From a virus: a stretch of DNA of 37,517 bases. How positions within the stretch are numbered: the first letter of the stretch is position 1; each line of letters begins with the position of its first letter. Shown here piece by piece: positions 1 through 37,517 of this stretch. The notes beneath the pieces were generated by a model. The model saw only the letters and a list, made by a program, of their open reading frames with translations, was not told the DNA's origin and ran no database searches. The translations under genes and the position numbers were made by a program. Location of the stretch: positions 1-37,517 of IMG/VR virus record IMGVR_UViG_3300027754_000222; one strand, written 5' to 3'.

Positions 1-261
1 GAAGATGAATTTGGCGGATATACAATTGAGATTGACCAATTTGACTTTGGTCATGTTGCACATAAAAATACTAAACTTTATATTTGTGGAATAGCTAAAG
101 ATAATTTACCACCAATGCCACCTAAAAATCTATCATCTACTGACAGGTCAATATGTGGTAATGTAAAAGGAACAAAACGCTGTACTCAATATCAACGAGA
201 ATATACACCAGATGATTTAATTAACTGGATGACAAAGGTATGTAATGAATTACAGAAATAA
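1..261 (+). CDS. PPC-motif phage protein, C-terminal fragment (5' end outside window)
   Basis: The reading frame is open from base 1 to TAA at 259-261 and gives 86 residues. They match the last 86 residues of the full-length gene at 36327-36875 almost perfectly, so this is the truncated 3' end of a second version of that gene. Between the two copies I count about 19 nucleotide mismatches in the first 240 bases, most of them synonymous, so both copies look under selection for protein function. The fragment lacks the N-terminal part holding the HPPCRAWG motif. Its 3' end overlaps the next gene by 17 bases. The family is a common phage protein of unproven function. Base 1 corresponds exactly to the last G of the poly-G run in the other copy. 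Confidence 0.85.
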   Translation, partial: EDEFGGYTIEIDQFDFGHVAHKNTKLYICGIAKDNLPPMPPKNLSSTDRSICGNVKGTKRCTQYQREYTPDDLINWMTKVCNELQK

Positions 262-535
262 AAAACTATTAGAGGTTGTTAGGGAAGCTCCATGTATGAT
301 GTGTTCAATGGAAGATGGAACAGTTTGTGCAGCTCATAGTAATCAATTAAGAGATGGCAAGGGAACTGGCATAAAAGCTCAAGATTTCCGCATTGCAGCG
401 TTATGTCACCAATGCCACCATATGATAGATAATGACAAATCATTAGATAAACATGATAGAATAAGTGCATGGGAAGAAGCACATAGAAAAACTATAGGTT
501 GGCTATTTACTAACGGACATTTAGGAGTAAAGTAA
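245..535 (+). CDS. YbcO/DUF1364-like zinc-binding nuclease
   Basis: This 96-residue protein has paired zinc ligands: C17-x2-C20, an AHSNQLRD stretch with H31, and C54-x2-C57 followed by H58 and D62. That layout is the one seen in the DUF1364 family (E. coli YbcO type), HNH-like nucleases found among nin-region genes of lambdoid phages. It probably acts on branched or single-stranded DNA in phage recombination, but the substrate is not established here. It overlaps the previous gene by 17 bases, and its TAA shares a base with the next ATG (TAATG). A diverged second copy at 36862-37152 shares 59 of 96 residues by hand count, with all zinc ligands conserved. Confidence 0.8.
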   Translation: MNYRNKKLLEVVREAPCMMCSMEDGTVCAAHSNQLRDGKGTGIKAQDFRIAALCHQCHHMIDNDKSLDKHDRISAWEEAHRKTIGWLFTNGHLGVK

Positions 536-744
536 TGGGGAAAGGTTCTGGCAGAAGACCATTGTTAATTTCTGAACAAGAAGCACAAGATAACTGGGAC
601 AAGATTTTTAAGAAGAAAAAGAATAGTGATGATGTATCACCGCACACTTATGAATACGAACTAAATAAGTCTATCGGTGATGTAGAGAAAAGATTTATAG
701 ACGGAACATCTAAACCTAACGAAAGTCAATTTAATGGCAACTAG
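535..744 (+). CDS. small charged hypothetical protein
   Basis: This 69-residue hydrophilic protein has a basic central segment (DNWDKIFKKKK) followed by DDVSPHTYEYELNKS. I see no membrane segment, cysteine pair or named domain. It sits between two nuclease-like genes, with TAATG coupling to the gene before and an 11-base overlap with the gene after, so it belongs to the same transcript. A 56-residue homologue at 37152-37322 keeps the DNWDKIF and SDDVSPH blocks but has a shorter C-terminus, which suggests the tail is dispensable. The function is unknown. Confidence 0.7.
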   Translation: MGKGSGRRPLLISEQEAQDNWDKIFKKKKNSDDVSPHTYEYELNKSIGDVEKRFIDGTSKPNESQFNGN

Positions 745-1051
745 CCCAACGCAGTTAAGTCTTAAAAAATTACGAGAAGAAGGATACACATGTTGGATTA
801 CAGAGCATTGGAATAGTTATGCTAGGATACGTCAAGATTTATTTGGTTTTATAGATATACTAGCTTTAAAGGGAAAAGAAACATTAGCTGTGCAAACAAC
901 TACAGCAACAAATATGTCAGCTAGAGTAAAGAAGATAGGTGACCATGAAAACGTAGGTCCAGTTCGTGAAGCTGGTTGGGCTATTCATGTACATGGTTGG
1001 CATCAAGACGATAAGAAAAAATGGCATTGCAAAGTGAAAGATGTATCATGA
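734..1051 (+). CDS. PD-(D/E)XK-like (Holliday-resolvase/VRR-NUC-like) protein, degenerate motif
   Basis: This 105-residue protein has a core reading DLFGFIDILALKG and then VQTTT. The spacing resembles the beta-hairpin of PD-(D/E)XK nucleases: D41 would be the motif-II aspartate, but the usual E-x-K is Q54-T-T. The N-terminal LKKLREEGY helix and the later GHVHGW-like strand also suit a small resolvase fold. The changed residues could mean an inactive or altered active site. Its position among nin-type genes supports a DNA-processing role. The partial second copy at 37312-37517 has the same D and QTT residues (58 of 68 identical by hand count), so the change is conserved and not a sequencing error. 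Confidence 0.6.
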   Translation: MATSPTQLSLKKLREEGYTCWITEHWNSYARIRQDLFGFIDILALKGKETLAVQTTTATNMSARVKKIGDHENVGPVREAGWAIHVHGWHQDDKKKWHCKVKDVS

Positions 1052-1398
1052 GTAACAAAGATAAAATAATAGCTTATCTTACAGAGCCTAAAACTATAAA
1101 AGCAATAGCTGAACATGTAGACGCTAACTATCACACTATTAAAAACTTGCTTGTAGCTATGAAGATGGAAGGTGATGTACATTCATTTAAAGATAACGAT
1201 AATAGACTTATGCACTATTACATTCCACAGCCACATCCATTACAAGCTATATTTGGACACACAGCAAACTTTACAGATGACCAGATAAAGAGCATTACAA
1301 TACATAATGCAGATGACTCTAAACATAACCTTCAGCATAATACTACACGAGAAACATTTGGGGAAAGCATAACCTATACGTTAGGTAAATATGATTAG
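1048..1398 (+). CDS. winged-helix DNA-binding protein
   Basis: I place the start at ATG 1048, which overlaps the preceding TGA (ATGA); an upstream start at 1021 would run inside the previous gene. The 116-residue product begins with a short winged-helix-like block of about 55 residues (KTIKAIAEHVDANYHTIKNL, then GDVHSF and a HYYI strand). The rest is polar, without a recognisable domain. It lies directly before the Q-like antiterminator and overlaps it by 8 bases, so it may help control early-to-late switching, but a replication role is just as possible. Only the DNA-binding fold is supported. Confidence 0.65.
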   Translation: MSNKDKIIAYLTEPKTIKAIAEHVDANYHTIKNLLVAMKMEGDVHSFKDNDNRLMHYYIPQPHPLQAIFGHTANFTDDQIKSITIHNADDSKHNLQHNTTRETFGESITYTLGKYD

Positions 1399-1720
1399 TA
1401 TGGAACGCTTACTATCTATTCTGGATGATTGGGCTTTGTGGATGAAGTCGGATAATCACAAGCTAGGTTATCCATCTAAAAGCATAGGCATGTCATCTGG
1501 TGGAGAGTCTACAAGTGATGCGTTTGAAGAAATGTGTTCTGCTCAGGATATGTCTAATGTAAGGACATTGCACGCTATCATACATAGTTTAGAAAAGCCT
1601 CAACAAGATGCTATCTATACTAAATACTTAGGTGCTAAACCAAAAATAGGCTATTATTGGGAGTTAGAACTAGCTTATGACAATTTACTGACAATAGCAG
1701 GTAGAAGGATAAACGCATAA
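1391..1720 (+). CDS. Q-like late antitermination protein (phage_antitermQ type)
   Basis: This 109-residue protein resembles the small Q antiterminators of lambdoid phages (PF06530-like). It has an N-terminal ILDDWALWM helix, a GYPSKSIG segment, a central LHAIIHSLEKPQQDAIYTKYLG block like the RNA-polymerase/DNA-contacting helices of that family, and a final helix ending in AGRRINA. The call rests mainly on context. The gene is last in the early rightward operon and is followed within 6 bases by a strong promoter and then an intrinsic terminator, as Q is by PR' and tR'. In that system Q loads on RNA polymerase paused near PR' and lets it pass tR' into the late genes. A profile search would settle the family. 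Confidence 0.65.
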   Translation: MISMERLLSILDDWALWMKSDNHKLGYPSKSIGMSSGGESTSDAFEEMCSAQDMSNVRTLHAIIHSLEKPQQDAIYTKYLGAKPKIGYYWELELAYDNLLTIAGRRINA

Positions 1721-1725
1721 TGTTG

Positions 1726-1755
1726 TTGAACAGAAATAGCAAAGTGTGCTATAAT
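1726..1755 (+). promoter_or_regulatory. late promoter (PR'-like), sigma70 type
   Basis: The -35 box is TTGAAC (1726-1731) and the -10 box is a perfect TATAAT (1750-1755), 18 bases apart, so transcription should begin near 1762. It is among the best consensus promoters in the window and faces the late genes. Just downstream are two small inverted repeats: GGACA/TGTCC (1766-1770, 1776-1780), and CGTTA-A-TAACG (1780-1790). These could form a pause signal or a Q-utilisation element in the leader. Confidence 0.8.
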
Positions 1756-1799
1756 ACTACTTGTTGGACAACTCCTGTCCGTTAATAACGTAATCCCAC

Positions 1800-1842
1800 A
1801 AAAGCCTGACTGCACTCTCTCCGTGGTTGGGCTTTTTCTTTT
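1800..1842 (+). terminator. intrinsic terminator in late leader (tR'-like)
   Basis: The left arm AAAAGCCTGAC (1800-1810) pairs with GTTGGGCTTTT (1826-1836), 11 pairs including two G-U wobbles. A second short stem, CAC/GTG (1813-1815, 1823-1825), closes a 7-base loop. The T-rich tract runs 1833-1842. It lies about 40-80 bases after the predicted late transcription start, so without antitermination most transcripts would end as a short leader RNA. Confidence 0.8.
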
Positions 1843-1844
1843 AT

Positions 1845-2012
1845 ATGAAACTATCTATTTGCGAACAATGTGGTGAACCTTTTGACTTCACCGAGTATTC
1901 TTTGTGCAACGATTGTAGACATGACCATAGATTTATTAAATTAAGGAAAGATAATGAAGTCAACACCCAAGACAAAAGCAGGCAAGATGGCAAAGATGAA
2001 AAAAGTATTTAA
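1845..2012 (+). CDS. small zinc-ribbon protein
   Basis: Starting at ATG 1845, just after the leader terminator, this 55-residue protein carries C-x2-C (EQCGEPF) and, about 15 residues later, C-x2-C (LCNDCRHDH), a typical single zinc ribbon. Its C-terminus is highly polar. A longer reading from TTG 1827 would lie inside the terminator stem, so I reject it. It is the first gene of the late transcript and overlaps the next one by 59 bases in another frame. The function is unknown; nucleic-acid binding is the usual role of such modules. Confidence 0.55.
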   Translation: MKLSICEQCGEPFDFTEYSLCNDCRHDHRFIKLRKDNEVNTQDKSRQDGKDEKSI

Positions 2013-2130
2013 AGAATTTGGTGCAGGAACTTTAAACGTAGGTAAGTCATCAAAAAAAGTGTCAAACCCTAAACAAGCCACCGCAATAGCTTTATCAGTT
2101 AGCGGTATGTCTAAAAAGAAAAGGAAATAA
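1954..2130 (+). CDS. small Lys-rich protein, DUF6496-like
   Basis: The ORF starts at ATG 1954 behind an AAGGAAAG ribosome-binding site and encodes 58 residues, 17 of them Lys or Arg and one acidic. The pattern KVFKEFGAGTLNVG, then a Lys-rich linker, then NPKQATAIALS matches the small DUF6496-type proteins seen near structural genes of many phages, as I remember them. It is strongly basic, so nucleic-acid binding is plausible, but no function is established. It overlaps the zinc-ribbon gene in another frame and is 2 bases from the next gene. Confidence 0.65.
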   Translation: MKSTPKTKAGKMAKMKKVFKEFGAGTLNVGKSSKKVSNPKQATAIALSVSGMSKKKRK

Positions 2131-2132
2131 TT

Positions 2133-2264
2133 ATGCCAATGGTCGGAAAAATGAAGTTTGCTTACACAGAAAAAGGTAAGAAAGAAGCTAAATCATACGC
2201 AAAGAAAACAGGTAAAGCTATGACAGCTAAGCCTATGAAAAAGGCAGCTAAACGTGGCAAGTAA
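2133..2264 (+). CDS. very small Lys-rich phage protein
   Basis: This 43-residue ORF begins 2 bases after the previous stop, at ATG 2133. About a third of its residues are Lys or Arg. It opens MPMVGKMKFAYTEKG and ends in a Lys/Ala-rich tail. Similar openings (MPMVG-K-F-YTEKG) recur in small proteins next to packaging genes of aquatic phages, from memory. The next gene starts inside its 3' end in another frame. Role unknown; a DNA-condensing or minor virion protein is conceivable. Confidence 0.6.
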   Translation: MPMVGKMKFAYTEKGKKEAKSYAKKTGKAMTAKPMKKAAKRGK

Positions 2265-2409
2265 ACCAGGCTTGTACAGTAATATTGCAAATAAACGTGC
2301 AAGAATCAAGGCTGGCTCAGGTGAGAAGATGCGCAAGGTAGGTTCTAAAGGTGCACCTACTGCTATGGCATTTAAACAATCAGCAAAGACAGCTAAGAAA
2401 AAGAAATGA
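2254..2409 (+). CDS. small basic phage protein with GTG start
   Basis: This 51-residue ORF starts at GTG 2254 inside the end of the previous gene and stops at TGA 2407-2409, sharing ATGA with the next gene. The sequence (SKPGLYSNIANKRARIKAGS, then MRKVGSKGAPTAMAF) belongs to a small family often found before terminase genes in aquatic podoviruses and siphoviruses, from memory. It is very basic and has no cysteine or membrane segment. The function is unknown. The GTG start is chosen because the family motif begins there and no ATG lies upstream in frame. Confidence 0.65.
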   Translation: MASKPGLYSNIANKRARIKAGSGEKMRKVGSKGAPTAMAFKQSAKTAKKKK

Positions 2410-2657
2410 TTAAGAAGGGTAAAGAAACATTTTCAGGTTATAATAAACCTAAAAGAACACCTAATCATCCTACTAAGTCACATGCAGTATTGGCTAAAGA
2501 TGGTGACCAAGAAAAACTTATACGCTTTGGACAAAAGGGCGTAAGTGGTGATAAAACAAATACAGATAGAGCAAAATCTTTTAAAGCAAGACACGCTAAA
2601 AACATTGCTAAAGGAAAAATGAGTGCTGCTTTTTGGGCTAACAAAGTAAAGTGGTAA
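2406..2657 (+). CDS. conserved small basic phage protein
   Basis: This 83-residue protein contains KSHAVLAKDGDQEKLIRFGQ, then GVSGDKTNTDRAKSFKARH, and ends SAAFWANKVKW. The block is well conserved in small proteins of many marine and freshwater phages, from memory, always near packaging or head genes. The core is basic and globular-looking, with a charged N-terminus. It overlaps the previous gene by 4 bases and the following GTG-started glycosyltransferase by 7, so all are co-translated. The function is unknown. Confidence 0.75.
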   Translation: MIKKGKETFSGYNKPKRTPNHPTKSHAVLAKDGDQEKLIRFGQKGVSGDKTNTDRAKSFKARHAKNIAKGKMSAAFWANKVKW

Positions 2658-3358
2658 AACTAGATATATATGTAGGATATGATGGCAAGGTAGAACCAAT
2701 TGCTTATCATAACTTTTGCCAGTCAGTTATAGAGAAGTCATCTATACCGGTTAGCTTTACACCATTAGCACTAAACACTTTAAAAGACTACAAAGAAACA
2801 CATACAGACGGTAGTAACGCATTTATCTACTCACGCTTTCTAGTGCCATATCTAAATAACTTTAAAGGTATCGCACTATTTGTAGATGGCGACATGATAT
2901 GCCGCACAGATATTGCAGAGATACTAGCTAACTTTGATACAGACGAAGCAATCAAGGTAGTTAAGCATCATTACCAAACAAAGCACCCTATTAAATATTT
3001 AGGTGCAAAGAACGAAGACTATCCTAAAAAGAATTGGTCAAGCGTTATGTTATGGAACTGTGGACATTGGCTCAATAAACAATTAACACCTAAGTTTGTG
3101 CAAGAACAAACAGGTAAATACCTACACAGGTTTGAATGGCTTAAGTATCCTGAAGAACAAGTAGGCAAGCTAGACGAAACATGGAACTGGCTAGAAACAG
3201 AATACGAATACAACCCAGATGCTAAGTTAGTCCATCACACCCTCGGCACACCTTGCTTTAAGGATTATCAGAATTCTGATTACGCAAAAGAGTGGTGGCA
3301 GACTTACCATAGAATGATATACCCACTTAAGGGTAATAACAAAGAATCAGAACTATAA
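2651..3358 (+). CDS. GT8-like glycosyltransferase
   Basis: This 235-residue protein begins (GTG start) with KLDIYVGYDGKVEPIAYHNF, the nucleotide-sugar-binding opening of GT-A fold enzymes. At residues 79-81 it has the metal-binding DGD (DxD) inside LFVDGDMICRTD. The later NWSSVMLWNC segment and PEEQVGKLDETWNWL, with a final HHTLGTPC, are typical of this phage GT family. It would transfer a sugar from a nucleotide donor; the acceptor (host glycan, virion protein or DNA base) cannot be read from the sequence. It sits just before the terminase genes, away from the second glycosyltransferase at 9569. Confidence 0.75.
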   Translation: MVKLDIYVGYDGKVEPIAYHNFCQSVIEKSSIPVSFTPLALNTLKDYKETHTDGSNAFIYSRFLVPYLNNFKGIALFVDGDMICRTDIAEILANFDTDEAIKVVKHHYQTKHPIKYLGAKNEDYPKKNWSSVMLWNCGHWLNKQLTPKFVQEQTGKYLHRFEWLKYPEEQVGKLDETWNWLETEYEYNPDAKLVHHTLGTPCFKDYQNSDYAKEWWQTYHRMIYPLKGNNKESEL

Positions 3359-3392
3359 CAGAGGGCAACCAACCTAAGGGAGTTGCAATATC

Positions 3393-3650
3393 ATGGCAGA
3401 ACGATTAAGAAAACGACATCAAGACGAAGTAAGAACAAAAATACAAACAAGTCAGCTAGTAAATGTCTTGCAAAATCATGCACTTGGTGTAGATGATGAA
3501 AAAGAAATTACACCTACACGCATGAAGGCAATAGAGATACTATTACGTAAGTCATTACCTGACCTATCATCTACAGAGATAAGTGGTGTAGATGGTGGAG
3601 ATATACCCATTGGTGTAGGAATTAGCTTTGTCAAACCAAACGATAGCTGA
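3393..3650 (+). CDS. terminase small subunit-like protein
   Basis: This 85-residue protein lies directly before TerL and overlaps it by 23 bases. It is mostly helical by composition: a basic N-terminus (AERLRKRHQDEVRTK), then a segment like the oligomerisation part of small terminases (LQNHALGVDDEKEITPTRMKAIEILLRKSLPDL). This pattern, TRMKA-IELLL-K-LPDL, is common in small-terminase-like proteins of aquatic phages. It would recognise the packaging site and hand the DNA to TerL. The upstream gap contains a GCAAC/GTTGC hairpin (3365-3369, 3382-3386) around the AAGGGAG ribosome-binding site, which could modulate translation. Confidence 0.7.
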   Translation: MAERLRKRHQDEVRTKIQTSQLVNVLQNHALGVDDEKEITPTRMKAIEILLRKSLPDLSSTEISGVDGGDIPIGVGISFVKPNDS

Positions 3651-4884
3651 GTTTCCTGATAAGTTACAGTTTCTATTTGAGCCACACCGTTACAAAGTAG
3701 CATACGGTGGTAGAGGTTCAGGTAAGTCATGGTCTATGGCTAGAGCATTGCTTATAAAAGCAGCGAATGAGCCAACACGTGTCTTATGTGCCAGAGAAAT
3801 ACAACGTAGTATTAAACAATCAGTACATACATTACTTAATGACCAGATACAGTCTTTAGGTCTAGGAGCTTTCTATGAAGTCCTAGAGTCAGAGATTAGA
3901 GGTCTTAACGGTAGTACATTTAGTTTTACCGGTCTTGCTACAAACACAGTAGAGTCTATAAAGTCTTTTGAAGGTTGTGATGTTGTATGGGTAGAAGAAG
4001 CTCAGACTGTTAGTAAGAAGTCATGGGACATATTAATACCTACAATACGTAAACCTAATTCAGAGATATGGGTATCATTCAACCCTAACATAGACACAGA
4101 CGACACATACACTAGATTTGTGGTAGAACCACCAGAGAACGCTAAGGTTGTTAAAGTAAACTATACTGACAATCCTTGGTTTCCTGAAGTGCTAGAAATT
4201 GAACGCCTACATAGTGAGAAGACTAACCCTGACTATGCAAACATCTGGGAAGGTGATTGTAAGGCTGCTGTAGATGGTGCTATATACTCTAACGAGATAC
4301 GAGAAGCACAAGAAGGTAACCGTATAACAACTGTACCTTATGACCCTATGATGAAGGTTCATGTAGTTATGGACTTAGGATGGAACGACAGCATGTCAGT
4401 TATCCTATGCCAAAAGGGTATATCAGATTTACGCATCATTGGTTATATAGAAGATGACCACAGAACATTAGATAGCTATTCTGCACAACTAAAGAACTTA
4501 TCCTATAACTGGGGTACAATGTTCTTACCACATGACGGACAGTCTAAAGACTTTAAGCATGGTATATCAGCAGAAGATATTATGAAGAAATTAGGATGGG
4601 ATATACGTATCGTGCCTAAAGCAGACATAGAGTCTGGTATTAAGTTAGCACGTATGAACTTCCACCGTATATACTTTGACAAGTCAGCACAAAGACTTGT
4701 TGAATGTTTAAAGAATTATCGCAGAAGTATAAACTCTGCAACCAACGAACCTGGTGCGCCATTGCATGATGAGTTTTCACATGGAGCAGACGCATTCAGA
4801 TACTTATGTACCTCTATAGAAGCTATGAAGAACGAATCATGGTCTAGAGAGAAGATACAATATAATACTAGAGGGATTGTTTAA
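3628..4884 (+). CDS. terL: terminase large subunit
   Basis: This 418-residue ATPase-nuclease packages DNA into proheads. Walker A is GGRGSGKS (residues 27-34), Walker B with the catalytic glutamate is VVWVEEA (119-125), and the C-terminal RNase-H-like nuclease begins VHVVMDLGWND with D249. A late HDEFSHGADAFRYL motif supplies another metal-binding acidic residue. Length and motifs fit the PBSX/Terminase_3 family. The start is TTG at 3628, because no ATG occurs before the Walker A region and the upstream sequence (IAEFPDKLQFLFEPHRYKVA) is typical of the family. TAATG coupling joins it to the portal gene. Confidence 0.95.
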   Translation: MSNQTIAEFPDKLQFLFEPHRYKVAYGGRGSGKSWSMARALLIKAANEPTRVLCAREIQRSIKQSVHTLLNDQIQSLGLGAFYEVLESEIRGLNGSTFSFTGLATNTVESIKSFEGCDVVWVEEAQTVSKKSWDILIPTIRKPNSEIWVSFNPNIDTDDTYTRFVVEPPENAKVVKVNYTDNPWFPEVLEIERLHSEKTNPDYANIWEGDCKAAVDGAIYSNEIREAQEGNRITTVPYDPMMKVHVVMDLGWNDSMSVILCQKGISDLRIIGYIEDDHRTLDSYSAQLKNLSYNWGTMFLPHDGQSKDFKHGISAEDIMKKLGWDIRIVPKADIESGIKLARMNFHRIYFDKSAQRLVECLKNYRRSINSATNEPGAPLHDEFSHGADAFRYLCTSIEAMKNESWSREKIQYNTRGIV

Positions 4885-6917
4885 TGAAGTTACAAGACAT
4901 GGAAATCATAGCTCAGGTAGAACTTGAAGAGAGTATGGCTTATGGTGTCAATGACTCTTCACTATCTAATGATAGAGCAGATGCAATTGACTATTACCTA
5001 GGTCAACCTTTTGGTAACGAAGAGGAAGGTCGTTCACAAGTAATTAGCTATGACGTACAAGATACGATTGAGGCTGCATTACCACAACTCTTAAAAGTCT
5101 TTGTAGCTGGTGATAAGGTTGTTCAGTTTGACCCTAAAGGTCCTGAAGACCAAGACGCAGCAGAGCAAGAAACAGATTACATTAACCATGTAGTCATGGA
5201 AAAGAACGAAGGGTTCAAGACATTCTACGTATGGTTTAAAGACGCACTACTTTCTAAGAATGGCTATGTAAAAGTCTATTCAGAAGATGAAGAAGAAGTA
5301 GAAGAATATGATTACAAAGGTTTAACTGATGCACAACTACAGATGTTGGCTTCAGATGAGAATACAGAAGTATTAGAACATACTGGCTATCCTGACCCAA
5401 CTGTCAATATGGATGTTATCTATCAGCAAGCAGCTATGAATGGTGTAGACCCTGCTACTATTATGCAACCTATGTTACATGATGTTAAGCTCAAGGTTAC
5501 AGAGAAAAAGACAGAGATTAAGATTGAAAACGTAGCACCTGAAAGCATTATGGTGTCTGTAGAAGTTACTGGTCCTAATCTAAAAGATGCACGCTTTGTT
5601 CAACATAGAGAAGTGATGCAGTTAGCTGACATTGCAAAAGCATTTAATAAGCCACTAGAATACATCAAGTCTATTATGTCAGACCTTCGTGATACGTTTG
5701 AAGAAGAGTCTAATGCACGTGATATTTATGATGAAGAATACGATAGAGCTATTGAGTCAGGCGAAGCATTAGTTAAAGACACTTATATTAAAATAGATGG
5801 TGAACGTCATAGAGTAGTTATCTTAGGCAACACAGTTCTTTATAAAGAAAAGACTGAGGTTGTACCTTTCGCATGTATCACTCCAATGATAATGCCACAT
5901 AGACATATCGGTCGTTCTTATGCTGACTTGACTATGGACATTCAGTTAATTAAGTCTACCCTTATTCGTGGTCAGTTAGATAACATGTATCTAGCTAACA
6001 ATGGTCGTTATGCTATCTCTGATAGAGTAAACCTAGATGATATGCTTACATCACGTCCAGGTGGTATTGTTCGTGTAGAAGGTGACCCAGGCTCAGGCAT
6101 TATGCCTTTATCACATCCACCACTACCAGCATCATCATTCGGTATGGTTGAATACATGGACTCTATGAAAGAAAAGAGAACAGGTGTTACAGCTTACAAT
6201 CAAGGCTTAGATGCTAACAGTCTAAACAAGACAGCTACCGGTGTAGCACAGATTATGAATGCGTCTCAACAACGTATTGAGTTAGTAGCTAGAACATTTG
6301 CAGAGACAGGTGTAAAAGAACTATTTAAACTTGTTCATAGACTTGTAAGAACTACACTTACCAAACCTGACATTGTTCGTATGCGTAACAAGTGGGTAGA
6401 AGTAGACCCTAGAGAATGGGAAGACCGTAATGATTTATCTATCTCTGTAGGATTAGGCGCAGGTAATAAAGACCAACAGTTAGCACATCTCATGTCTATC
6501 TTGAATATGCAAAAAGAAGCTATCCAAATAGGTCTTACATCACCAGAGAAGATATACAACGCACTCGCTAAACTTACACAGAACGCAGGCTTTAAGAACC
6601 CTGAAGAGTTCTGGACTAACCCATCTCAGAACCCACAAGGTGAACAACCAAAACAACCTGACCCTCAAGAAACTCTTATTCAAGGTCAGTTAGCTATTGA
6701 GCAACAAAAAGCTCAGTCTGATATGCAATTGGCACAACAAAAAGCACAGGCTCAGTTAGCACAAGAACAAGAACGTAGTAAGAATGACATTATTATTGAA
6801 CGTGAAAAGATAATGTCACAAGCAGAACTAGAAAGATTTAAAGCACAACTTAAAGCAGAGACAGATTTAGCTATTGCTCAAATCAAAGCTCAGTCAGGAA
6901 TGATGTATGGCGGATAA
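4884..6917 (+). CDS. portal protein (P22-like podovirus type)
   Basis: This 677-residue protein forms the dodecameric vertex through which DNA enters and leaves. It starts with a DRADAIDYYLGQPFGNEEEGRSQ segment and DVQDTIEAALPQLLKVFV, standard in P22-type portals, and includes RSYADLTMDIQLIKSTLIRG and GVTAYNQGLDANSLNKTATG, the hallmark stem/clip region of this family. The C-terminal 100 residues are rich in Gln, Lys and Ala, a coiled coil like the barrel of P22 portal. Its length is close to P22 gp1. It follows terL with a one-base overlap and overlaps the next small gene by 11 bases. Confidence 0.92.
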   Translation: MKLQDMEIIAQVELEESMAYGVNDSSLSNDRADAIDYYLGQPFGNEEEGRSQVISYDVQDTIEAALPQLLKVFVAGDKVVQFDPKGPEDQDAAEQETDYINHVVMEKNEGFKTFYVWFKDALLSKNGYVKVYSEDEEEVEEYDYKGLTDAQLQMLASDENTEVLEHTGYPDPTVNMDVIYQQAAMNGVDPATIMQPMLHDVKLKVTEKKTEIKIENVAPESIMVSVEVTGPNLKDARFVQHREVMQLADIAKAFNKPLEYIKSIMSDLRDTFEEESNARDIYDEEYDRAIESGEALVKDTYIKIDGERHRVVILGNTVLYKEKTEVVPFACITPMIMPHRHIGRSYADLTMDIQLIKSTLIRGQLDNMYLANNGRYAISDRVNLDDMLTSRPGGIVRVEGDPGSGIMPLSHPPLPASSFGMVEYMDSMKEKRTGVTAYNQGLDANSLNKTATGVAQIMNASQQRIELVARTFAETGVKELFKLVHRLVRTTLTKPDIVRMRNKWVEVDPREWEDRNDLSISVGLGAGNKDQQLAHLMSILNMQKEAIQIGLTSPEKIYNALAKLTQNAGFKNPEEFWTNPSQNPQGEQPKQPDPQETLIQGQLAIEQQKAQSDMQLAQQKAQAQLAQEQERSKNDIIIEREKIMSQAELERFKAQLKAETDLAIAQIKAQSGMMYGG

Positions 6918-7179
6918 GTCACTAGAAGAAGTTAAGCGTGGTGAACAAGCATCAAAGATATTAGATAACCCTATCTATAAAGAAGCTATGGATAAGGTTC
7001 GTGAAAGTCTTATTGCTAGTATGGCTAACAGTCCATTAGGTGATGAGAAGACACACAACAGATTAGTAATAGCATTACAGTTATTAAACCAAATAAACAA
7101 GCAACTTACTGACGTTATGCAAACAGGTAAGTTAGCAGCTATCCAAACGGACAGACCTAAGTTTAAGATATTTGGGTAA
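6907..7179 (+). CDS. small helical protein between portal and scaffold
   Basis: This 90-residue, probably all-helical protein has GEQASKILDNPIYKEAMDKVRESL in the first half and HNRLVIALQLLNQINKQLTDVMQTGKLA in the second. The block resembles small proteins found at this position, between portal and scaffold, in podovirus-like phages. Its role is unknown; a head-assembly or packaging accessory is likely from context. It overlaps the portal gene by 11 bases. After its stop there is a 62-base gap that holds a hairpin before the scaffold gene. Confidence 0.65.
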   Translation: MADKSLEEVKRGEQASKILDNPIYKEAMDKVRESLIASMANSPLGDEKTHNRLVIALQLLNQINKQLTDVMQTGKLAAIQTDRPKFKIFG

Positions 7180-7220
7180 GGACAAGCCCACTTAATACTC
7201 TAACGAGTATTTCTATTGTC
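7180..7220 (+). promoter_or_regulatory. hairpin leader upstream of scaffold gene
   Basis: A perfect 7-bp stem, AATACTC (7194-7200) and GAGTATT (7205-7211), closes a TAAC tetraloop. An outer pairing GACAA (7181-7185) with TTGTC (7216-7220) extends it. No long T tract follows, so it is not a clear terminator. It may stabilise the capsid mRNA or mark an RNase processing site ahead of the abundant scaffold and capsid genes. Confidence 0.45.
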
Positions 7221-7241
7221 TAATTTCAAGGAAATAAAACT

Positions 7242-8225
7242 ATGAGTGACCAAGTCGCAGAACAGTCACCACAAAGTCGGTTAGAGACTATGCTTGGTGA
7301 TAGTGTTGAATCAGATGTTAAACCACCTGAACTTCAAGACGAAGAAGAACAAACACCACTAGAGGCTGAAGCTGAAGATACTGAAGAAGTAGAATCAGAA
7401 GAAGCAACAGAAGAATCAGATGACGAAGTTGAGGAAGAAGAACAGTCGCAAGATGAAGTTCCTGCTATCCTTAAACTTAAAGTCAATGGTGAAGATGTTG
7501 AAAAACCACTAGACGAAGTAGTAGCATTAGCTCAACAAGGCTTAGACTACACGCAAAAGACACAACAAGTAGCAGAACAACGTAAAGAGCTAGAAACTTA
7601 TGCCCAGCAAATACAATTGCAGGAGCAAGCCTTTCACGAACAAATGCAACTTAACAATGTGTTGATTGAAGATGTAGCAAAAATCACATCATTAGACCAA
7701 CAATTAAACCAATATGCTAACGTGAATTGGAATCAATTGTCTGATAATGACTTTGTGGAAGCGCAAAAACTTTTCTTTACATACAACCAACTACAGCAAG
7801 AACGTAGCCAACTCGTTTCACAGTTTGAAGCCAAAAAGCAACAAGTCGTTTATAAGCAAACGCAATTGATGTCTGAGAAGATAGCAAAGGGAAAAGAAAT
7901 TCTAGCAAAAGAGATACCAAATTGGAGTCCTGAGACTAACCAAGCATTGTTATCTACTGGCAAGGATTATGGATTTTCTGATGCCGAACTCAACTCAATT
8001 GTTGACCCTCGTCACGTAAAGGTATTGCATGACGCTATGCAATGGCGCAAACTTCAACAGAATTCTACTGTAAAGAAAAAAGTATCAAGTGCTAAACCAG
8101 TGGTGAAACCTGGTTCTAAAGATACCAAAACGGAAGCTAACTCTAACCACCGTAACCTACGTGAGCAATTACGTAAGACAGGTAAATCAGACGCAGCTAC
8201 AAAACTTATAGAAAACATGCTTTAA
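7242..8225 (+). CDS. scaffolding protein
   Basis: This 327-residue protein directly precedes the major capsid gene. Residues about 10-75 are extremely acidic (runs of Glu and Asp). Residues about 95-215 form a Gln/Glu-rich coiled coil (QKTQQVAEQRKELETYAQQ). The C-terminus is basic and helical (NHRNLREQLRKTGK), as expected for the part that binds the coat protein. Scaffolds guide coat assembly into a prohead and leave or are cleaved before packaging. Family identity rests on position, composition and length, because scaffolds diverge fast. Its ribosome-binding site is AAGGAAAT. Confidence 0.82.
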   Translation: MSDQVAEQSPQSRLETMLGDSVESDVKPPELQDEEEQTPLEAEAEDTEEVESEEATEESDDEVEEEEQSQDEVPAILKLKVNGEDVEKPLDEVVALAQQGLDYTQKTQQVAEQRKELETYAQQIQLQEQAFHEQMQLNNVLIEDVAKITSLDQQLNQYANVNWNQLSDNDFVEAQKLFFTYNQLQQERSQLVSQFEAKKQQVVYKQTQLMSEKIAKGKEILAKEIPNWSPETNQALLSTGKDYGFSDAELNSIVDPRHVKVLHDAMQWRKLQQNSTVKKKVSSAKPVVKPGSKDTKTEANSNHRNLREQLRKTGKSDAATKLIENML

Positions 8226-8245
8226 TTTAAAAGGAAACCATAATC

Positions 8246-9199: not shown

Positions 9200-9216
9200 T
9201 AACTAGATGTGATATG

Positions 9217-9249
9217 ATAGGGGGAGTTAATTCTCCCTCTATTATTTTT
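9217..9249 (+). terminator. intrinsic terminator after major capsid gene
   Basis: The stem is ATAGGGGGAG (9217-9226) with CTCCCTCTAT (9233-9242), 10 pairs including one G-U, closing a TTAATT loop. A T-rich tract (TTATTTTT) ends at 9249. It lies 18 bases after the coat stop codon and would reduce transcription into the tail genes unless antiterminated. Confidence 0.8.
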
Positions 9250-9252
9250 ACT

Positions 9253-9576
9253 ATGCCAATATTATTTGACCACAATAGCGTAACAGGTGTAAGTCAGTAC
9301 TTTGACTATGACCCTGCTAAAGATACATACTACCTAACTAGCACACAAGATATTAGTGGCATGTTAGACAATATTAAAAAGTCCAGAGATAACCCTGAAA
9401 TTTGGAACAAAGGTGTTAAACAAGAATGGGCGCACTTTGCTAGTATTCCACCGGTAGTGGAAATGCAGTTAAAGCAAAAGGGTATAGACATGTATAACCC
9501 TAACCAAACAAAAGAACTCATAAAAGAAATAAACGAAAACTATCCATATCTAAAGTTGACTACCAAACGTGGATAA
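9253..9576 (+). CDS. conserved hypothetical head-region protein
   Basis: I place the start at ATG 9253 (MPILFDHN). An in-frame ATG at 9214 would put the terminator inside the coding region and add an unlikely leader peptide. The 107-residue protein contains YFDYDPAKDTYYLTSTQDI and IWNKGVKQEWAHFASIPPVV, and ends with helices (TKELIKEINENYPYLKLT). Similar proteins occur next to capsid genes in aquatic phages, from memory; the function is unknown, and a head-completion or decoration role is a guess. No good ribosome-binding site precedes ATG 9253, which is odd for a gene in this operon. Confidence 0.65.
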   Translation: MPILFDHNSVTGVSQYFDYDPAKDTYYLTSTQDISGMLDNIKKSRDNPEIWNKGVKQEWAHFASIPPVVEMQLKQKGIDMYNPNQTKELIKEINENYPYLKLTTKRG

Positions 9577-33727: not shown

Positions 33728-33887
33728 CTTTCTCTCCTGTTGTAATTCTTGTTGATGTTGTTCCATCATTACTTGGTCGTAGTGTTGTTGTTGTGACATT
33801 TGCTCTCTCCCATTTGTCGTTATCTAATTTAAGTTCGTCATTCAATCGTTTAAGAATATCTGCTATCTGTTCTAAACCATTCGCCAT
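33717..33887 (-). CDS. small hypothetical early protein
   Basis: Starting at ATG (33887-33885) with a GGGG ribosome-binding site, this 56-residue protein has an N-terminal amphipathic helix (NGLEQIADILKRLNDELKLD) and a Thr/Ser-rich tail (ANVTTTTLRPSNDGTTSTRI). It overlaps the annealing-protein gene by 11 bases. Reading further upstream would add a hydrophobic stretch that belongs to a separate tiny ORF in another frame. The function is unknown; the helix pattern suggests a protein-protein interaction. Confidence 0.6.
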   Translation of the reverse strand: MANGLEQIADILKRLNDELKLDNDKWERANVTTTTLRPSNDGTTSTRITTGEKDEL

Positions 33888-33937
33888 ATTATATACCCCC
33901 AAAATACAAAAAGGAATAGCCATAAGTATTTATTCAT
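33872..33937 (-). CDS. 21-residue hydrophobic peptide (candidate)
   Basis: This tiny minus-strand ORF (ATG 33937-33935, TAG 33874-33872) encodes NKYLWLFLFVFWGYIIWRMV after Met, almost all membrane helix. Its ATG overlaps the stop of the upstream peptide gene (ATGA). It then overlaps the next gene by 16 bases. The overlap pattern fits this operon, but 21 residues is short and it could be chance. Confidence 0.35.
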   Translation of the reverse strand: MNKYLWLFLFVFWGYIIWRMV

Positions 33938-34029
33938 ATTGCACCTACTAACTTACCCATAACCCATAAGCATAATCCTACATAAACCCAGAATAGTGCT
34001 GCTGTTGCTATCATTGTCGTAATTTTCAT
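33934..34029 (-). CDS. 31-residue membrane peptide
   Basis: This minus-strand ORF starts at ATG (34029-34027), with AGGAGAG upstream. The product, KITTMIATAALFWVYVGLCL followed by WVMGKLVGAI, is a single membrane helix. It is the second gene of the early leftward operon. The strong ribosome-binding site suggests it is translated. Unknown function; a membrane-active host-takeover peptide is possible. Confidence 0.55.
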   Translation of the reverse strand: MKITTMIATAALFWVYVGLCLWVMGKLVGAI

Positions 34030-34030
34030 A

Positions 34031-34174
34031 TTATCTCTCCTGGCCAAGTCTTAATAAAAGTTTATACATTCGTTTGTATGCTTTAGTTTTATCTAAGTTA
34101 AAAAACTCATATTGCTCACATAAATCATAAGCATTACATTGGAATGTGGCCATCATTACTAAGTTATCTTTCAT
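34031..34174 (-). CDS. 47-residue hypothetical protein, first gene of early leftward operon
   Basis: This minus-strand ORF starts at ATG (34174-34172) with an AGGAGAG site. It encodes a polar helical protein: KDNLVMMATFQCNAYDLCEQ, then YEFFNLDKTKAYKRMYKLLL. Its stop overlaps the ribosome-binding region of the next gene. It lies nearest to the control region, so it is probably the first protein of the leftward operon. No known family. Confidence 0.6.
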   Translation of the reverse strand: MKDNLVMMATFQCNAYDLCEQYEFFNLDKTKAYKRMYKLLLRLGQER

Positions 34175-34202
34175 TTTTCTCTCCTATATAAAATAACAAC
34201 TT

Positions 34203-34239
34203 AATAGCAATATACACGATTTTTTAAAAATAGCAATAT
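34203..34239 (-). promoter_or_regulatory. divergent control region: leftward promoter and 11-bp direct repeats
   Basis: AATAGCAATAT occurs twice (34203-34213 and 34229-34239), 26 bases apart. Read leftward these give TTGCTA (-35; plus-strand 34231-34236) and TATATT (-10; 34209-34214) with a 16-base spacer, so the repeats both shape and could control the early leftward promoter. Between here and ATG 34328 the plus strand has only weak promoter-like boxes (TATGAT at 34280-34285). No repressor gene is adjacent. Confidence 0.5.
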
Positions 34240-34327
34240 TTCTAGTAAATTGTTAGTAATAAAATAGTTTACAAATATATATGATTCGTGTTAAGGTCTT
34301 TTGGAATTATTAACCAAAGGAGAGTAT

Positions 34328-34945
34328 ATGTACAAAATTAAGAACTGGGAGAAGTTTAATCTTTATAATCCAAAGAATCCAAGGTATCAAAAAAAGATGA
34401 CGTGGTTTAAGTTTTATGGTACGGATTACATAAATAACATAGATATACATAAGCTATCTTTTGAACAAAAAGCTGTTTTAGTAGAGTTGTGGTGTCTTGG
34501 TTCTGAAAGTGACGGAGTGTTACCAGAACTGTTTGAAATAGCTTTTAGACTTCATTATCCTATTGATTTTGTTGAGAAATTAGTAAAAGAACTATTTGCT
34601 AGAGGATTACTAGTAGAAAACTACGAGCCTGTTAGGATAGAGAAGAGAAGAGAAGAGAAGATAAGAGAAGATATATATGTCGTTAAAACGACCAACAGGT
34701 TTGAAGAATTTTGGGAAAACTATCCTAATGTTCGTAAAGTAAACAAGAAAACATGTATTGAAAGATGGGCTAATAAAAATCTTGACGGTATAGCAGATGA
34801 AGTGATAGGGTATGTAAAGAAGATGAAAGATACTCAATCATGGAAAGATGGATTCTCACCAGCACCTTTAACGCTTTTGAACCAGGAGAGATGGAATGAT
34901 GGTGAAGCTCCACAAGAACGTAAAGTTTGGGAAGGTGGCATTTAG
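34328..34945 (+). CDS. phage replication initiator/helicase-loader-like protein (O-like)
   Basis: I place the start at ATG 34328, which has AAAGGAGAG 4-5 bases upstream; TTG 34301 is out of context. The 205-residue protein has an N-terminal winged-helix-like part (FEQKAVLVELWCLGSESDGV, then PIDFVEKLVKELFARGLL) and a C-terminal domain: RFEEFWENYPNVRKVNKKTC, ERWANKNLDGIADEV, FSPAPLTLLNQERW. That ending is typical of phage replication proteins that recruit the helicase. A very basic/acidic linker (EKRREEKIREDI) joins them. It overlaps the helicase by one base, as in lambda O and P-type modules. Confidence 0.78.
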   Translation: MYKIKNWEKFNLYNPKNPRYQKKMTWFKFYGTDYINNIDIHKLSFEQKAVLVELWCLGSESDGVLPELFEIAFRLHYPIDFVEKLVKELFARGLLVENYEPVRIEKRREEKIREDIYVVKTTNRFEEFWENYPNVRKVNKKTCIERWANKNLDGIADEVIGYVKKMKDTQSWKDGFSPAPLTLLNQERWNDGEAPQERKVWEGGI

Positions 34946-35865
34946 TGAATATAGGTGAAGTAATAGATAAACTAACAGTTAGTCAATCAACAGTGCAAGA
35001 ATTTTATAACGAAGGATACGGACATGCAGAGTTTAAAGTTAAAAGTACGGATATATTTGCTGATGATTTGGTACGGTATTTTGGTGAGGAAATTCATAGT
35101 GGCAAATCACTTGGTTGGGTTAAGACGGAAGATAAGTTTAGGGTTAGGGCTTCGGAACTAACAATTCTTACCGGTGTATCAGGTCATGGTAAGTCAATGT
35201 GGTTATCACAAGTTGTATTATCTATGATGAAACAAAATACTAAATGTTTAATAGCGTCTTTAGAAATGAGACCTGTTCTTACATTAGCTCGTATGGTTAC
35301 TCAGGCATTAGGTTCACCAGAGCCAACAGATGAATATATACATAAGTTTTGTGAACGTGCTAAAGACAAGTTATATATTTACGACCAAACAGGTGTAACT
35401 ACTTCACAAGATATGGTTGCTACGTTATACTATGGTAAACATATTTTAGGTGTAGAAGTATTTGTAATAGATAGTTTGGTTAAATTAGATGATGTTTCTG
35501 AAGAGTCATTAGATGCACAACGACAAGTAACAAATACTTTAGCAGTCATTGCACGAGATTTAGAAATAAGTATTTTTTTAGTTGCACATAGTAGAAAATT
35601 AAAGTCAGAACAAGATATACCTGATGCTACAAACATTATGGGAAGTTCGCATATTAGAAATTTATGTGATAACATTATTTGTGTGTGGCGTAATCGTGAA
35701 AAAGAAAAGTTAATAGAAGTTGGTAAAACACCTGAAGCTGAGTTAAAGATTATTCCAGATGCAAAGGTCTTTGTTCAGAAGCAGCGTAATGCACAATGGG
35801 AAGGTTCATTTAACTTTTGGTTTGACCAAAAAGGTTTACGATATAACGAGAGTCCACCAAGATGA
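34945..35865 (+). CDS. DnaB-like replicative helicase (RecA fold)
   Basis: I place the start at GTG 34945, sharing a base with the previous stop and having GGAAGG upstream. The 306-residue protein has Walker A GVSGHGKS (77-84), Walker B VFVID (172-176) with a following Ser, and motif H3/H4-like FLVAHSRKLK near residue 210-220. RMVTQALGSPEPTDE is typical of hexameric helicases of the DnaB/twinkle class. There is no primase domain. It would unwind the fork during phage replication, loaded by the initiator encoded just before it. It overlaps the next gene (ATGA). Confidence 0.88.
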   Translation: MNIGEVIDKLTVSQSTVQEFYNEGYGHAEFKVKSTDIFADDLVRYFGEEIHSGKSLGWVKTEDKFRVRASELTILTGVSGHGKSMWLSQVVLSMMKQNTKCLIASLEMRPVLTLARMVTQALGSPEPTDEYIHKFCERAKDKLYIYDQTGVTTSQDMVATLYYGKHILGVEVFVIDSLVKLDDVSEESLDAQRQVTNTLAVIARDLEISIFLVAHSRKLKSEQDIPDATNIMGSSHIRNLCDNIICVWRNREKEKLIEVGKTPEAELKIIPDAKVFVQKQRNAQWEGSFNFWFDQKGLRYNESPPR

Positions 35866-36035
35866 CCATAAATGAATTTATAAAGCAATGCAAAAAAGTA
35901 TTTGGAGATAACATTCAATACAAAGCAACTTCTAAAGACGGACAAGTATTTAAAACGAAAGGATGGAGAGATGATAAAGTGGTCGCTAACCAAAGACAAC
36001 TTGCCAATGTTAGTGGAGAAATTAAAAACACTTGA
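35862..36035 (+). CDS. 57-residue hypothetical protein
   Basis: This ORF starts at ATG 35862 overlapping the helicase stop (ATGA) and ends TGA 36033-36035. Its 57 residues read TINEFIKQCKKVFGDNIQYK, then ATSKDGQVFKTKGWRDDKVV, with a small alpha/beta character. It fills an otherwise empty gap of about 105 bases, but its last 65 bases overlap NinB in another frame, so its 3' half is less sure. No family is recognised. It may be a small replication or recombination accessory. Confidence 0.5.
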   Translation: MTINEFIKQCKKVFGDNIQYKATSKDGQVFKTKGWRDDKVVANQRQLANVSGEIKNT

Positions 36036-36327
36036 CTTTACTCATAGATGGAGAGTAACAGTCACAGATGCTAAACTTAACCGTAGCCTAGAACAAAATG
36101 AAAGACTATGGGAACTGTATTCAAGCATAGGAAACCATTTAGGACTAGACAAGCAACAGGTGCATGAACTCATGTCTTGGCGTCTGCTTCGCTCACAAAC
36201 AGAAATAGCTGGATTTCCTATAGAGATTATAAAGTCAACAACTAAACTAACCACAAGTGAGATGACAGAATACCAACAACAGATAGAGGTATGGGGTCAG
36301 ACTATGGGTTGGGGTTGGGATTATTAG
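35971..36327 (+). CDS. NinB-like recombination protein
   Basis: I place the start at ATG 35971 (MIKWSLTKDN), since upstream reading covers the previous gene. The 118-residue protein matches the NinB/Orf family: KLKTLDFTHRWRVTVTDAKL, NRSLEQNERLWELYSSIGNH, and WRLLRSQTEIAGFP. Lambda NinB (Orf) helps load annealing protein onto SSB-covered DNA and replaces RecFOR functions. It fits with the Sak3/YqaJ/SSB-like set in the leftward operon. It overlaps the following GTG-started gene by one base. Confidence 0.88.
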   Translation: MIKWSLTKDNLPMLVEKLKTLDFTHRWRVTVTDAKLNRSLEQNERLWELYSSIGNHLGLDKQQVHELMSWRLLRSQTEIAGFPIEIIKSTTKLTTSEMTEYQQQIEVWGQTMGWGWDY

Positions 36328-36875
36328 TGATAGCTATATTATTTGCTAGAGATGATAGTCGCTATAAAGATTTTAATGTGTATGATGTGTATGACATTAA
36401 TCGTGATGCTAGAACATTCTGTAAAAAAATGCCTGTAATAGCACATCCACCATGTAGAGCTTGGGGTATGTTATCTCACATGGCAAATCCCAGAGAAGGT
36501 GAAAAGCAATTAGCTTATTTAGCATTAGCTCAAGTAAGACTCAATGGAGGTATATTAGAGCATCCTGCTGGAAGTCGTTTATGGAAAGAAGCACCTTTAC
36601 CTTTGGCGGGGGGGGGGGAGGATGAATTTGGTGGGTATACAATTGAAATTGACCAATTTGACTTTGGTCATGTTGCACACAAAAATACTAAACTTTATAT
36701 TTGTGGAATAGCTAAAGATAATTTACCACCATTACCACTTAAAAATTTGTCATCTACTGACAGGTCAATTTGTGGTAATGTAAAAGGAACAAAACGCTGC
36801 ACTCAATATCAACGTGAATATACACCTGATAATTTAATTGAATGGATGACAAAAGTTTGTAATGAACTATCGTAA
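36327..36875 (+). CDS. PPC-motif phage protein (possible methyltransferase relative)
   Basis: I place the start at GTG 36327, which shares the G of the NinB TAG stop. The 182-residue protein has a strand YKDFNVYDVYDINRDARTFC, then VIAHPPCRAWGMLSHMANP, LAQVRLNGGILEHPAGSRLW, and a C-terminal FDFGHVAHKNTKLYICGI. The HPPCRAWG motif resembles motif IV (PPC) of cytosine-5 methyltransferases, with the Cys as possible nucleophile, but the SAM-binding FxGxG motif is missing, so catalysis is unproven. An 11-base G run (36608-36618) encodes Ala-Gly-Gly-Gly-Glu in the linker region. The 86-residue end is repeated at the window start. Confidence 0.75.
   Translation: MIAILFARDDSRYKDFNVYDVYDINRDARTFCKKMPVIAHPPCRAWGMLSHMANPREGEKQLAYLALAQVRLNGGILEHPAGSRLWKEAPLPLAGGGEDEFGGYTIEIDQFDFGHVAHKNTKLYICGIAKDNLPPLPLKNLSSTDRSICGNVKGTKRCTQYQREYTPDNLIEWMTKVCNELS
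36608..36618 (+). repeat. 11-base G homopolymer inside the PPC-protein gene
   Basis: Eleven consecutive G bases occur in otherwise AT-rich DNA. As written the frame stays open through it. Slippage here would switch the gene off, and such runs are also prone to sequencing and assembly error. The copy at the window start begins exactly at the base matching the last G, so the run is also where the sequence record breaks. Confidence 0.9.
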
Positions 36876-37152
36876 CCCTAAACTACTTAAACTAGCCAAA
36901 GATGCACCATGTATGAATTGCGGTATTATGGATGACACTATAGTGGCAGCACACTCTAATCAGTTAAGAGATGCCAAAGGGGTCGGCATCAAGTCCCACG
37001 ATTATCGCATAAGTTACTTATGTAGTATGTGCCACGCAAGAATAGATAATGGTAAAGAGTTAAGCAGAGAAGAACGCATAGAACTATGGGAAAATGCACA
37101 CAGAAGAACTATAGGATATTTATTTACTAGCGGACATCTGGAGGTAAAGTAA
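36862..37152 (+). CDS. YbcO/DUF1364-like zinc-binding nuclease, second copy
   Basis: This 96-residue protein is the counterpart of the gene at 245-535, with the same length and the same zinc ligands (C17, C20, H31, C54, C57, H58). Differences cluster in the N-terminal helix and the C-terminal half, and the AHSNQLRD core is unchanged. Its start overlaps the PPC-protein gene by 14 bases, and its stop shares TAATG with the next gene, the same spacing as in the first copy. Likely the same nuclease function in a sister strain's version. Confidence 0.8.
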   Translation: MNYRNPKLLKLAKDAPCMNCGIMDDTIVAAHSNQLRDAKGVGIKSHDYRISYLCSMCHARIDNGKELSREERIELWENAHRRTIGYLFTSGHLEVK

Positions 37153-37322
37153 TGGGCAAAGGAAGTTCACAAAGACCTATAAAAGATAAAGAAGTATTTG
37201 AAGATAACTGGGATAAGATATTCAACAAGAAAAAACGTAGTGATGACGTATCACCACACCTACAAGAATATGAACTTAACAAGTCTACAGGTGAGTTGCA
37301 GAAGGTAGATAATGGCGACTAG
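37152..37322 (+). CDS. small charged hypothetical protein, second copy
   Basis: Starting at ATG 37152 (TAATG), this ORF encodes 56 residues with DNWDKIFNKKKRSDDVSPH in the middle, matching the core of the 69-residue protein at 535-744. The N-terminal 12 residues differ partly and the C-terminus is 13 residues shorter. It overlaps the following gene by 11 bases, as in the first copy. Function unknown. Confidence 0.7.
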   Translation: MGKGSSQRPIKDKEVFEDNWDKIFNKKKRSDDVSPHLQEYELNKSTGELQKVDNGD

Positions 37323-37517
37323 CCCTACACAATTATCATTAAAAAAATTACGAGAAGAAGGATACACAGTAGCAGTAGTAGAGCATTGGAATAGTTTTGC
37401 AAGGATACGCCAGGACTTGTTTGGCTTTATAGACTTACTAGCTTTAAAAGGTAAAGAAGTATTAGTAGTCCAAACAACAACAGCAAGCAATATATCAGCA
37501 AGAGTTAAGAAGATAGC
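37312..37517 (+). CDS. PD-(D/E)XK-like protein, second copy (3' end outside window)
   Basis: The frame is open from ATG 37312 to the window edge, giving 68 residues. They begin ATSPTQLSLKKLREEGYTVA and include DLFGFIDLLALKGKE and VVQTTTASN. D41 and the QTT triplet match the copy at 734-1051, with 10 replacements in 68 positions by hand count, most of them conservative. The gene is truncated only by the window boundary. Confidence 0.75.
   Translation, partial: MATSPTQLSLKKLREEGYTVAVVEHWNSFARIRQDLFGFIDLLALKGKEVLVVQTTTASNISARVKKI

Follow-up and report, generated by a model that had tools for sequence, protein, structure and literature searches.

Unequal ends of a phage contig lead to a putative homopolymer switch in a C5-methyltransferase-like gene

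Why should the two ends of one viral contig carry the same genes in different versions? We analysed record IMGVR_UViG_3300027754_000222, a 'linear' virus contig in IMG/VR, over its full 37,517 nucleotides (the window; 37% GC, no tRNA genes found in it). In BLASTN, positions 1-938 and 36618-37516 are collinear with 74.3% nucleotide identity over 947 columns (E ~1e-172), and the left end has no second match elsewhere in the window. With ends only 74% identical, the window lacks identical terminal repeats. The preliminary description of this DNA had noted the same four-gene order at both ends and an uneven divergence between them; BLASTN and per-gene comparison bear this out, with identities from 61.5% to 94.1% of residues. 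The copies agree at 91.3% of nucleotides and 94.1% of residues in the 3' end of the gene for a PPC-motif protein (about 8% nucleotide divergence had been claimed), at 61.5% of residues in the YbcO/HNH-like protein (38.5% differ; 39% claimed) and at 85% of both nucleotides and residues in the PD-(D/E)XK-like part (about 15% divergence claimed). The small middle ORF is 69% identical in residues.

A 10.6-kb viral contig (L003) that matches the window at more than 99.9% identity on either side of the join bears directly on how these ends arose. Its positions 1-2784 correspond to window 33824-36607 (2,784 bases, one mismatch, 99.95% identity), positions 2785-2795 are a run of 11 G (G11) lying between the equivalents of window bases 36607 and 2, and positions 2796-10623 correspond to window 2-7829 (7,828 bases; four mismatches, all within 44 bases of the tract). 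Both ends of the window are therefore contiguous within a near-identical genome, with five mismatches across about 10.6 kb and a single cassette. Because L003 runs on over the join, the ends adjoin in this strain (strain A), which has one cassette and a closed map of about 36,617 bases. The right-hand end of the window tells a different story of descent. After the tract, the window tail is 95-97% identical to four other contigs (L006, L014, L062, L068). Upstream of it, identity to the window falls to about 78-80% for L006, L014 and L062, against 99.95% for L003; L068 starts at the tract and has no upstream DNA. Since the tail at 36619-37517 matches another lineage, the contig consists of a closed map of about 36,617 bases followed by about 900 bases of a second strain, and the position of the strain change is the G tract itself (36608-36618). 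The strain-switch join of a closed map with a period of 36,617 bases, one of two explanations put forward in the preliminary description, is thus supported, as far as sequence comparison can tell, by the spanning contig and by the lineage-B tail.

The other explanation was that a single genome really holds two cassettes in tandem and that the contig was opened between them. It would account for a four-gene order present twice within one contig. We reject it: L003 is single-copy over the junction, the second copy comes from a different lineage, and the number of cassettes per genome, named beforehand as a deciding check, is one. None of 92 distinct contigs spanning from NinB to the Q-like gene carries two copies (in 90, the HNH and PDX genes are each present once; two lack the HNH gene), which makes a duplication very improbable.

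The preliminary description was also right that the nin-like region is mosaic, as backbones, gene order and inserts vary among the relatives. A YqaJ-type exonuclease and a Sak annealing protein, a recombination pair, are encoded on the minus strand at window 32700-33799, which fits this mosaicism. The join could then also be a natural recombinant, that is, molecules with lineage-A DNA upstream and lineage-B DNA downstream, brought together by recombination in the homopolymer or in the sequence beside it. That sequence is indeed conserved between lineages, the gene that contains the tract travels between unrelated backbones (L060/L061), and nin-like regions are mosaic. Yet the arrangement of A upstream and B downstream was seen in no other contig, strain A keeps A on both sides in L003, and the start of this contig, together with four other contig ends, falls at a tract, pointing to assembly breakage. 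We consider a natural recombinant quite unlikely, and the unequal ends are, on these alignments, most likely an assembly artefact.

The tract itself suggests how the artefact could come about. G11 is the only G run longer than five in the window. It is where the right-hand copy begins; the first base of the contig is either the last G of the homologous tract or the base that follows. Homopolymers mark five contig ends in all, namely the starts of the window, L068, L071 and L072 and, at a C tract, the end of L048. L071 starts with a garbled flank followed by G16; in L003, two Asp residues immediately downstream of the tract, near-invariant elsewhere, are altered. Both look like read errors, and the tract seems to be a place where short reads fail. 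Short k-mers shared at the tract would let an assembler cross between strains; most likely the assembly passed from strain A to strain B at G11, where flanks are shared and reads unreliable. The phage genome map would then be circular or circularly permuted, about 36,617 bases long, with one cassette, and opened at the G homopolymer. Tracts of this kind are a hazard for virome assembly: contigs break at them, and the resulting strain chimeras lose their 'circular/complete' status. The features concerned are collected in Table 1.

Table 1. Features at the ends of the window (nucleotide positions) and tract sites in the methyltransferase-like protein (residues)
Feature	Position	Strand	Remark
C5-methyltransferase-like gene, 3' part, lineage A	1..261	+	L003 G11 (2785-2795) runs on into window base 2
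YbcO/HNH-like nuclease, lineage A	245..535	+	homolog of 36862-37152, 61.5% aa
Small ORF, 69 aa, lineage A	535..744	+	one copy per relative
PD-(D/E)XK-like small protein, 105 aa, lineage A	734..1051	+	428 relatives in viral contigs
DNA contiguous with window base 2 in L003: DnaB-like, NinB, 5' half of methyltransferase-like gene	33824..36607	+	
C5-DNA-methyltransferase-like gene, 194 aa	36291..36875	+	phrog_12600, 4e-46; lineage A before tract, B after
G11 homopolymer, in-frame (ON) putative phase-variable tract, strain-change point	36608..36618	+	
Second-strain tail, lineage B	36619..37517	+	rest of methyltransferase-like gene, HNH_B, small ORF_B, start of PDX_B
YbcO/HNH-like nuclease, lineage B	36862..37152	+	PF07102 just below cut-off; phrog_131 HNH endonuclease
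Tract site 1	residue ~28		after helix 24-27, LGGGYDV
Tract site 2	residues about 105-110		AGGGEDEFGG
Tract site 3	residue ~147		LPPPPPKN, TPPRN
Tract site 4	residue ~180		YSPPPLI

For the small lineage-A ORF a PHROG search gave no match. Neither Pfam nor PHROG searches matched the PD-(D/E)XK-like protein, so its nuclease label comes solely from the motif recognised in the preliminary description. Elsewhere in the window, a 1,343-aa ORF at 12619-16650, among the structural genes, has no PHROG match at 0.01 and possibly encodes a large virion or internal protein.

What, then, is the gene in which the tract lies? Proteins of its family are about 183-195 residues long. The AlphaFold2 model (pLDDT 85, pTM 0.83) predicts a C5-cytosine-methyltransferase fold, and the top structural matches listed for it are C5-methyltransferases throughout, with M.HaeIII found by Foldseek (E 1.3e-4) and M.HhaI as the best match in VIA-align (Z 9.6, rmsd 4.5, 177 aligned residues). 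Across 22 sequences, Cys55 in HPPC and Glu90 in EHP are invariant and correspond, with positional equivalence judged by eye, to the catalytic Cys (PC) and Glu (ENV) of C5-methyltransferases. The SAM-binding motif I F-x-G-x-G is absent; F18-A-R20-D-D22-S23 takes its place, with R20, D22 and S23 invariant. The target-recognition domain is also nearly absent, as there is little room for one between the motif-VIII-like and C-terminal segments. Replacement of the G-x-G of motif I by R-x-D and the loss of almost all of the target-recognition domain make methyltransferase activity doubtful. Searches of curated families gave no Pfam match and in NCBIfam only one spurious match in a single member, no solved relative was found by sequence at E up to 1, and the single weak match in a defence library (PDC-S71 in one member, E 0.02) was disregarded. 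By its predicted structure, the protein is built on a C5-methyltransferase scaffold, yet it is not filed as a member of that family.

The family extends beyond relatives of this phage to microviruses, Mu-like Pseudomonas phages, an 11-kb Xanthomonas phage and many bacterial genome assemblies, where the genes presumably belong to prophages; no relatives were found on plasmids. Two contigs (L060 1294-1838 and L061 10001-10547) carry the tract-bearing gene in otherwise unrelated backbones, and conservation with the window reaches only about 280 bases upstream and about 240 bases downstream of the gene, so the gene and its tract move together. Gene order is changed in six contigs (L022-L027), with the HNH gene ahead of the methyltransferase-like gene. 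Three of them (L023-L025) share an early in-frame stop in the latter (RYK*LKG), perhaps another OFF state.

To place the G11 tract among these relatives, we compared G/C runs within the gene with runs in the DNA around it. Relatives had been fetched by protein patterns, and the sole tract-based scan gave only contigs already found; tracts were therefore not selected for in the sample. Genes were clustered at 95% nucleotide identity into 78 AT-rich and 129 GC-rich clusters, with flanks taken from the same contigs. The G/C runs of relatives are 8-16 long and occupy several different loop positions in the gene. Runs of at least 8 occur within the gene in 26 of the 78 AT-rich clusters, which is 26 runs within 48 kb of gene sequence, where the 684 kb of flanks hold 4 (about 93-fold, Poisson P ~1e-41); for runs of at least 9 the counts are 18 in the gene and 0 in the flanks. 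In the GC-rich clusters the excess is 14-fold (18 runs in 81 kb of gene, 12 in 765 kb of flank). Synonymous recoding with local codon usage gave a similar picture. Among viral in-frame genes, 0.26 tract-bearing genes were expected and 15 of 59 observed, with a maximum of 2 in 200 rounds; for genes from bacterial genomes, 2.4 were expected (maximum 7) and 8 observed. Conserved W-G-G and T-P-P motifs explain part of the excess in the GC-rich and bacterial genes. An excess of G/C homopolymers inside the ORF, as in a contingency locus, is thus present. A chance origin of the G run was ruled out by the scarcity of such runs in the window, the recoding test and the flank comparison.

The tracts lie near residues 28, 105, 147 and 180, all of them loops in the AlphaFold2 model. 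Tract-free relatives have other residues at these positions, and GGG accounts for only 19 of the 629 Gly codons in 14 window genes. Unless selection favours the tract, it is hard to see why tracts should arise repeatedly in one gene that sits on different backbones, and gain at several loops suggests that the ability to switch was probably selected.

A switch requires that both in-frame and shifted lengths circulate. We scored alleles as ON or OFF by translation through the tract; a motif-based frame test misled in GC-rich relatives (L326, L329, L340 and L356). At the window's tract site, relatives carry G9 to G12, in and out of frame, and at this main site six alleles are in frame (ON) and eight are shifted by one (OFF). 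With an OFF length there, translation stops 6-34 residues beyond the point where the tract codons begin, and the product lacks the motif-VIII-like and C-terminal segments. The N-terminal site reads in frame with G9 (L032, and L492, which is identical to contig L287) and out of frame with G8 (L258, and L504, identical to contig L267). A third site is in frame in a C8 allele and shifted in C10 and C11 alleles. ON and OFF lengths are hence both present at three sites, as in a contingency locus. The C-terminal tracts of AT-rich relatives, four in number, are all in frame. Two pairs of contigs isolate the change in length. L014 and L062, from two data sets, agree over 10,571 bases without a mismatch and differ solely by one G (G12 versus G11). 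Between L047 and L049, 1,201 bases contain 22 substitutions and a single indel, one C of the tract. In the genome assembly of a cultured strain, Pantoea sp. 18069 (L345:4395), a C9 tract is out of frame; intact in-frame relatives of it exist.

Length differences of this kind could instead be sequencing, PCR or assembly noise in a fixed run of G/C-rich codons that does not switch at all. G11 is difficult for short reads, homopolymer lengths from short reads or PCR can err by one, errors stand beside the tract in L003 and L071, and ON and OFF alleles are about equally common, as frequent length errors would give. Noise, however, leaves unexplained both the roughly 93-fold excess over flanks at several unrelated positions and the stringing together of GGG codons where tract-free relatives have other residues. 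We regard it as an unlikely explanation, though one that deserves to be weighed.

The OFF alleles might also mark a decaying gene in which tracts are passive frameshift hot spots of pseudogenes, and 13 tract alleles from AT-rich relatives are indeed frameshifted. Against this, OFF pairs have a dN/dS of 0.082 downstream of the tract, close to the 0.087 of ON pairs. This similarity means that OFF alleles are not old pseudogenes, and indirectly indicates the coding selection, through reversion, expected of alleles that switch. The frames are otherwise open, and shifted viral alleles number 13 with a tract against a single tract-free lineage (L053/L054; Fisher P ~3e-6). Decay was ruled out on the dN/dS values, and we give it a very small residual probability. 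In L053/L054 the one-base frameshift lies near residue 147 without a homopolymer of at least 7, and the near-twins L038-L042 are in frame.

Programmed ribosomal or transcriptional slippage would yield full-length protein at a set ratio from any tract length. Long homopolymers can slip, and the commonness of OFF alleles would suit such a device. The tracts are, however, G or C according to lineage, they vary in codon position and site, there is no conserved slippery heptamer, and many family members are tract-free. Programmed slippage is accordingly improbable as an account of these alleles, and we return to a switch that acts through the DNA.

Such a switch would work by slippage in replication, which would alter the G count by one and give mixtures of ON and OFF genomes. 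At the main site, 11 G followed by AAG or AGG keeps the frame, and with 10 or 12 G the protein ends a few to about 35 residues further on. The start codon of the downstream lineage-B HNH gene overlaps the 3' end of the methyltransferase-like gene by 14 bases, so an early stop in the latter could also lower HNH translation. The ON form may modify phage or host DNA, and mixed ON/OFF progeny could then be a safeguard where hosts restrict DNA in different ways, some with enzymes that cut unmodified DNA, say, and others with enzymes that cut modified DNA. We assign a probability of about 0.78 to the joint reading of a strain-A closed map with a strain-B tail, in which the tract is a frameshift switch that serves DNA-modification hedging. 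Taken singly, the claim that the tract in the methyltransferase-like gene is a true switch seems to us well founded in the distribution of alleles and probably correct. A role of the protein in DNA modification, suggested by the predicted fold, is a tentative proposal that we hold at somewhat below even odds. We also lean towards the broader view that this minimal C5-methyltransferase-like family is a widespread contingency locus, in which lineages in different dsDNA phages evolved poly-G or poly-C switches repeatedly and at different loops; phage populations would then be mixed for a function in DNA modification or counter-defence, ON in some members and OFF in others.

An artefactual contig end thus leads to a repeatable pattern, one phage gene repeatedly gaining slippery G/C runs. 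If the switch is confirmed, phage populations would hedge a DNA-level function, beyond receptor binding, and environmental virome reads could be used to measure tract switching directly. PolyG tracts are reportedly listed in more than 100 phage genera. Our full-text literature search found no account of homopolymer switching in a phage methyltransferase-like gene; the gene, its spread and the repeated gain of tracts look new, whereas polyG switching in phages is already known.

The closest known members of the protein family are phrog_12600, Gp8 of Rhodobacter phage Ebor, a 'putative DNA methylase', and Casadabanvirus genes that adjoin terminase. Relatives in isolate phages are about 40% identical to the methyltransferase-like protein. 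Among the Pseudomonas phages (L212, L359-L361), Doze, Frizzy and Meadow have G7 and G8 runs and Meltemi a G7 run in the gene, all in frame; in Frizzy, Meadow and Meltemi the gene lies directly upstream of that for the terminase large subunit. The likeness to M.HhaI and M.HaeIII comprises the predicted fold, the PPC cysteine and the Glu at the ENV position. The protein differs from them in having only 12-18% identity, 183-194 residues instead of about 325, and F-x-R-x-D-S in place of F-x-G-x-G.

Phase-variable DNA methyltransferases are known from bacteria, for instance a Campylobacter type IIG enzyme (PMC4889913) and M.NgoAV (PMC9577141). The present gene shares with them homopolymer control of an enzyme of the DNA-methyltransferase kind, here a predicted one. 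The bacterial systems are restriction-modification genes encoding full-size enzymes, whereas ours is a stand-alone phage protein of about 185 residues with an altered SAM motif. The nearest parallel on the phage side is polyG phase variation in receptor-binding proteins of Campylobacter Fletchervirus phages (Sorensen et al. 2021, as related in PMC11868660 and PMC11959909). As described in those accounts, Fletchervirus phages likewise carry poly-G within an ORF that is turned ON and OFF by frameshift, and their populations are mixed. There, the tracts serve receptor-binding proteins of phages with polyG-rich hosts; here, they lie in a C5-methyltransferase-like gene of AT-rich environmental phages and have been gained as G or C tracts at several positions.
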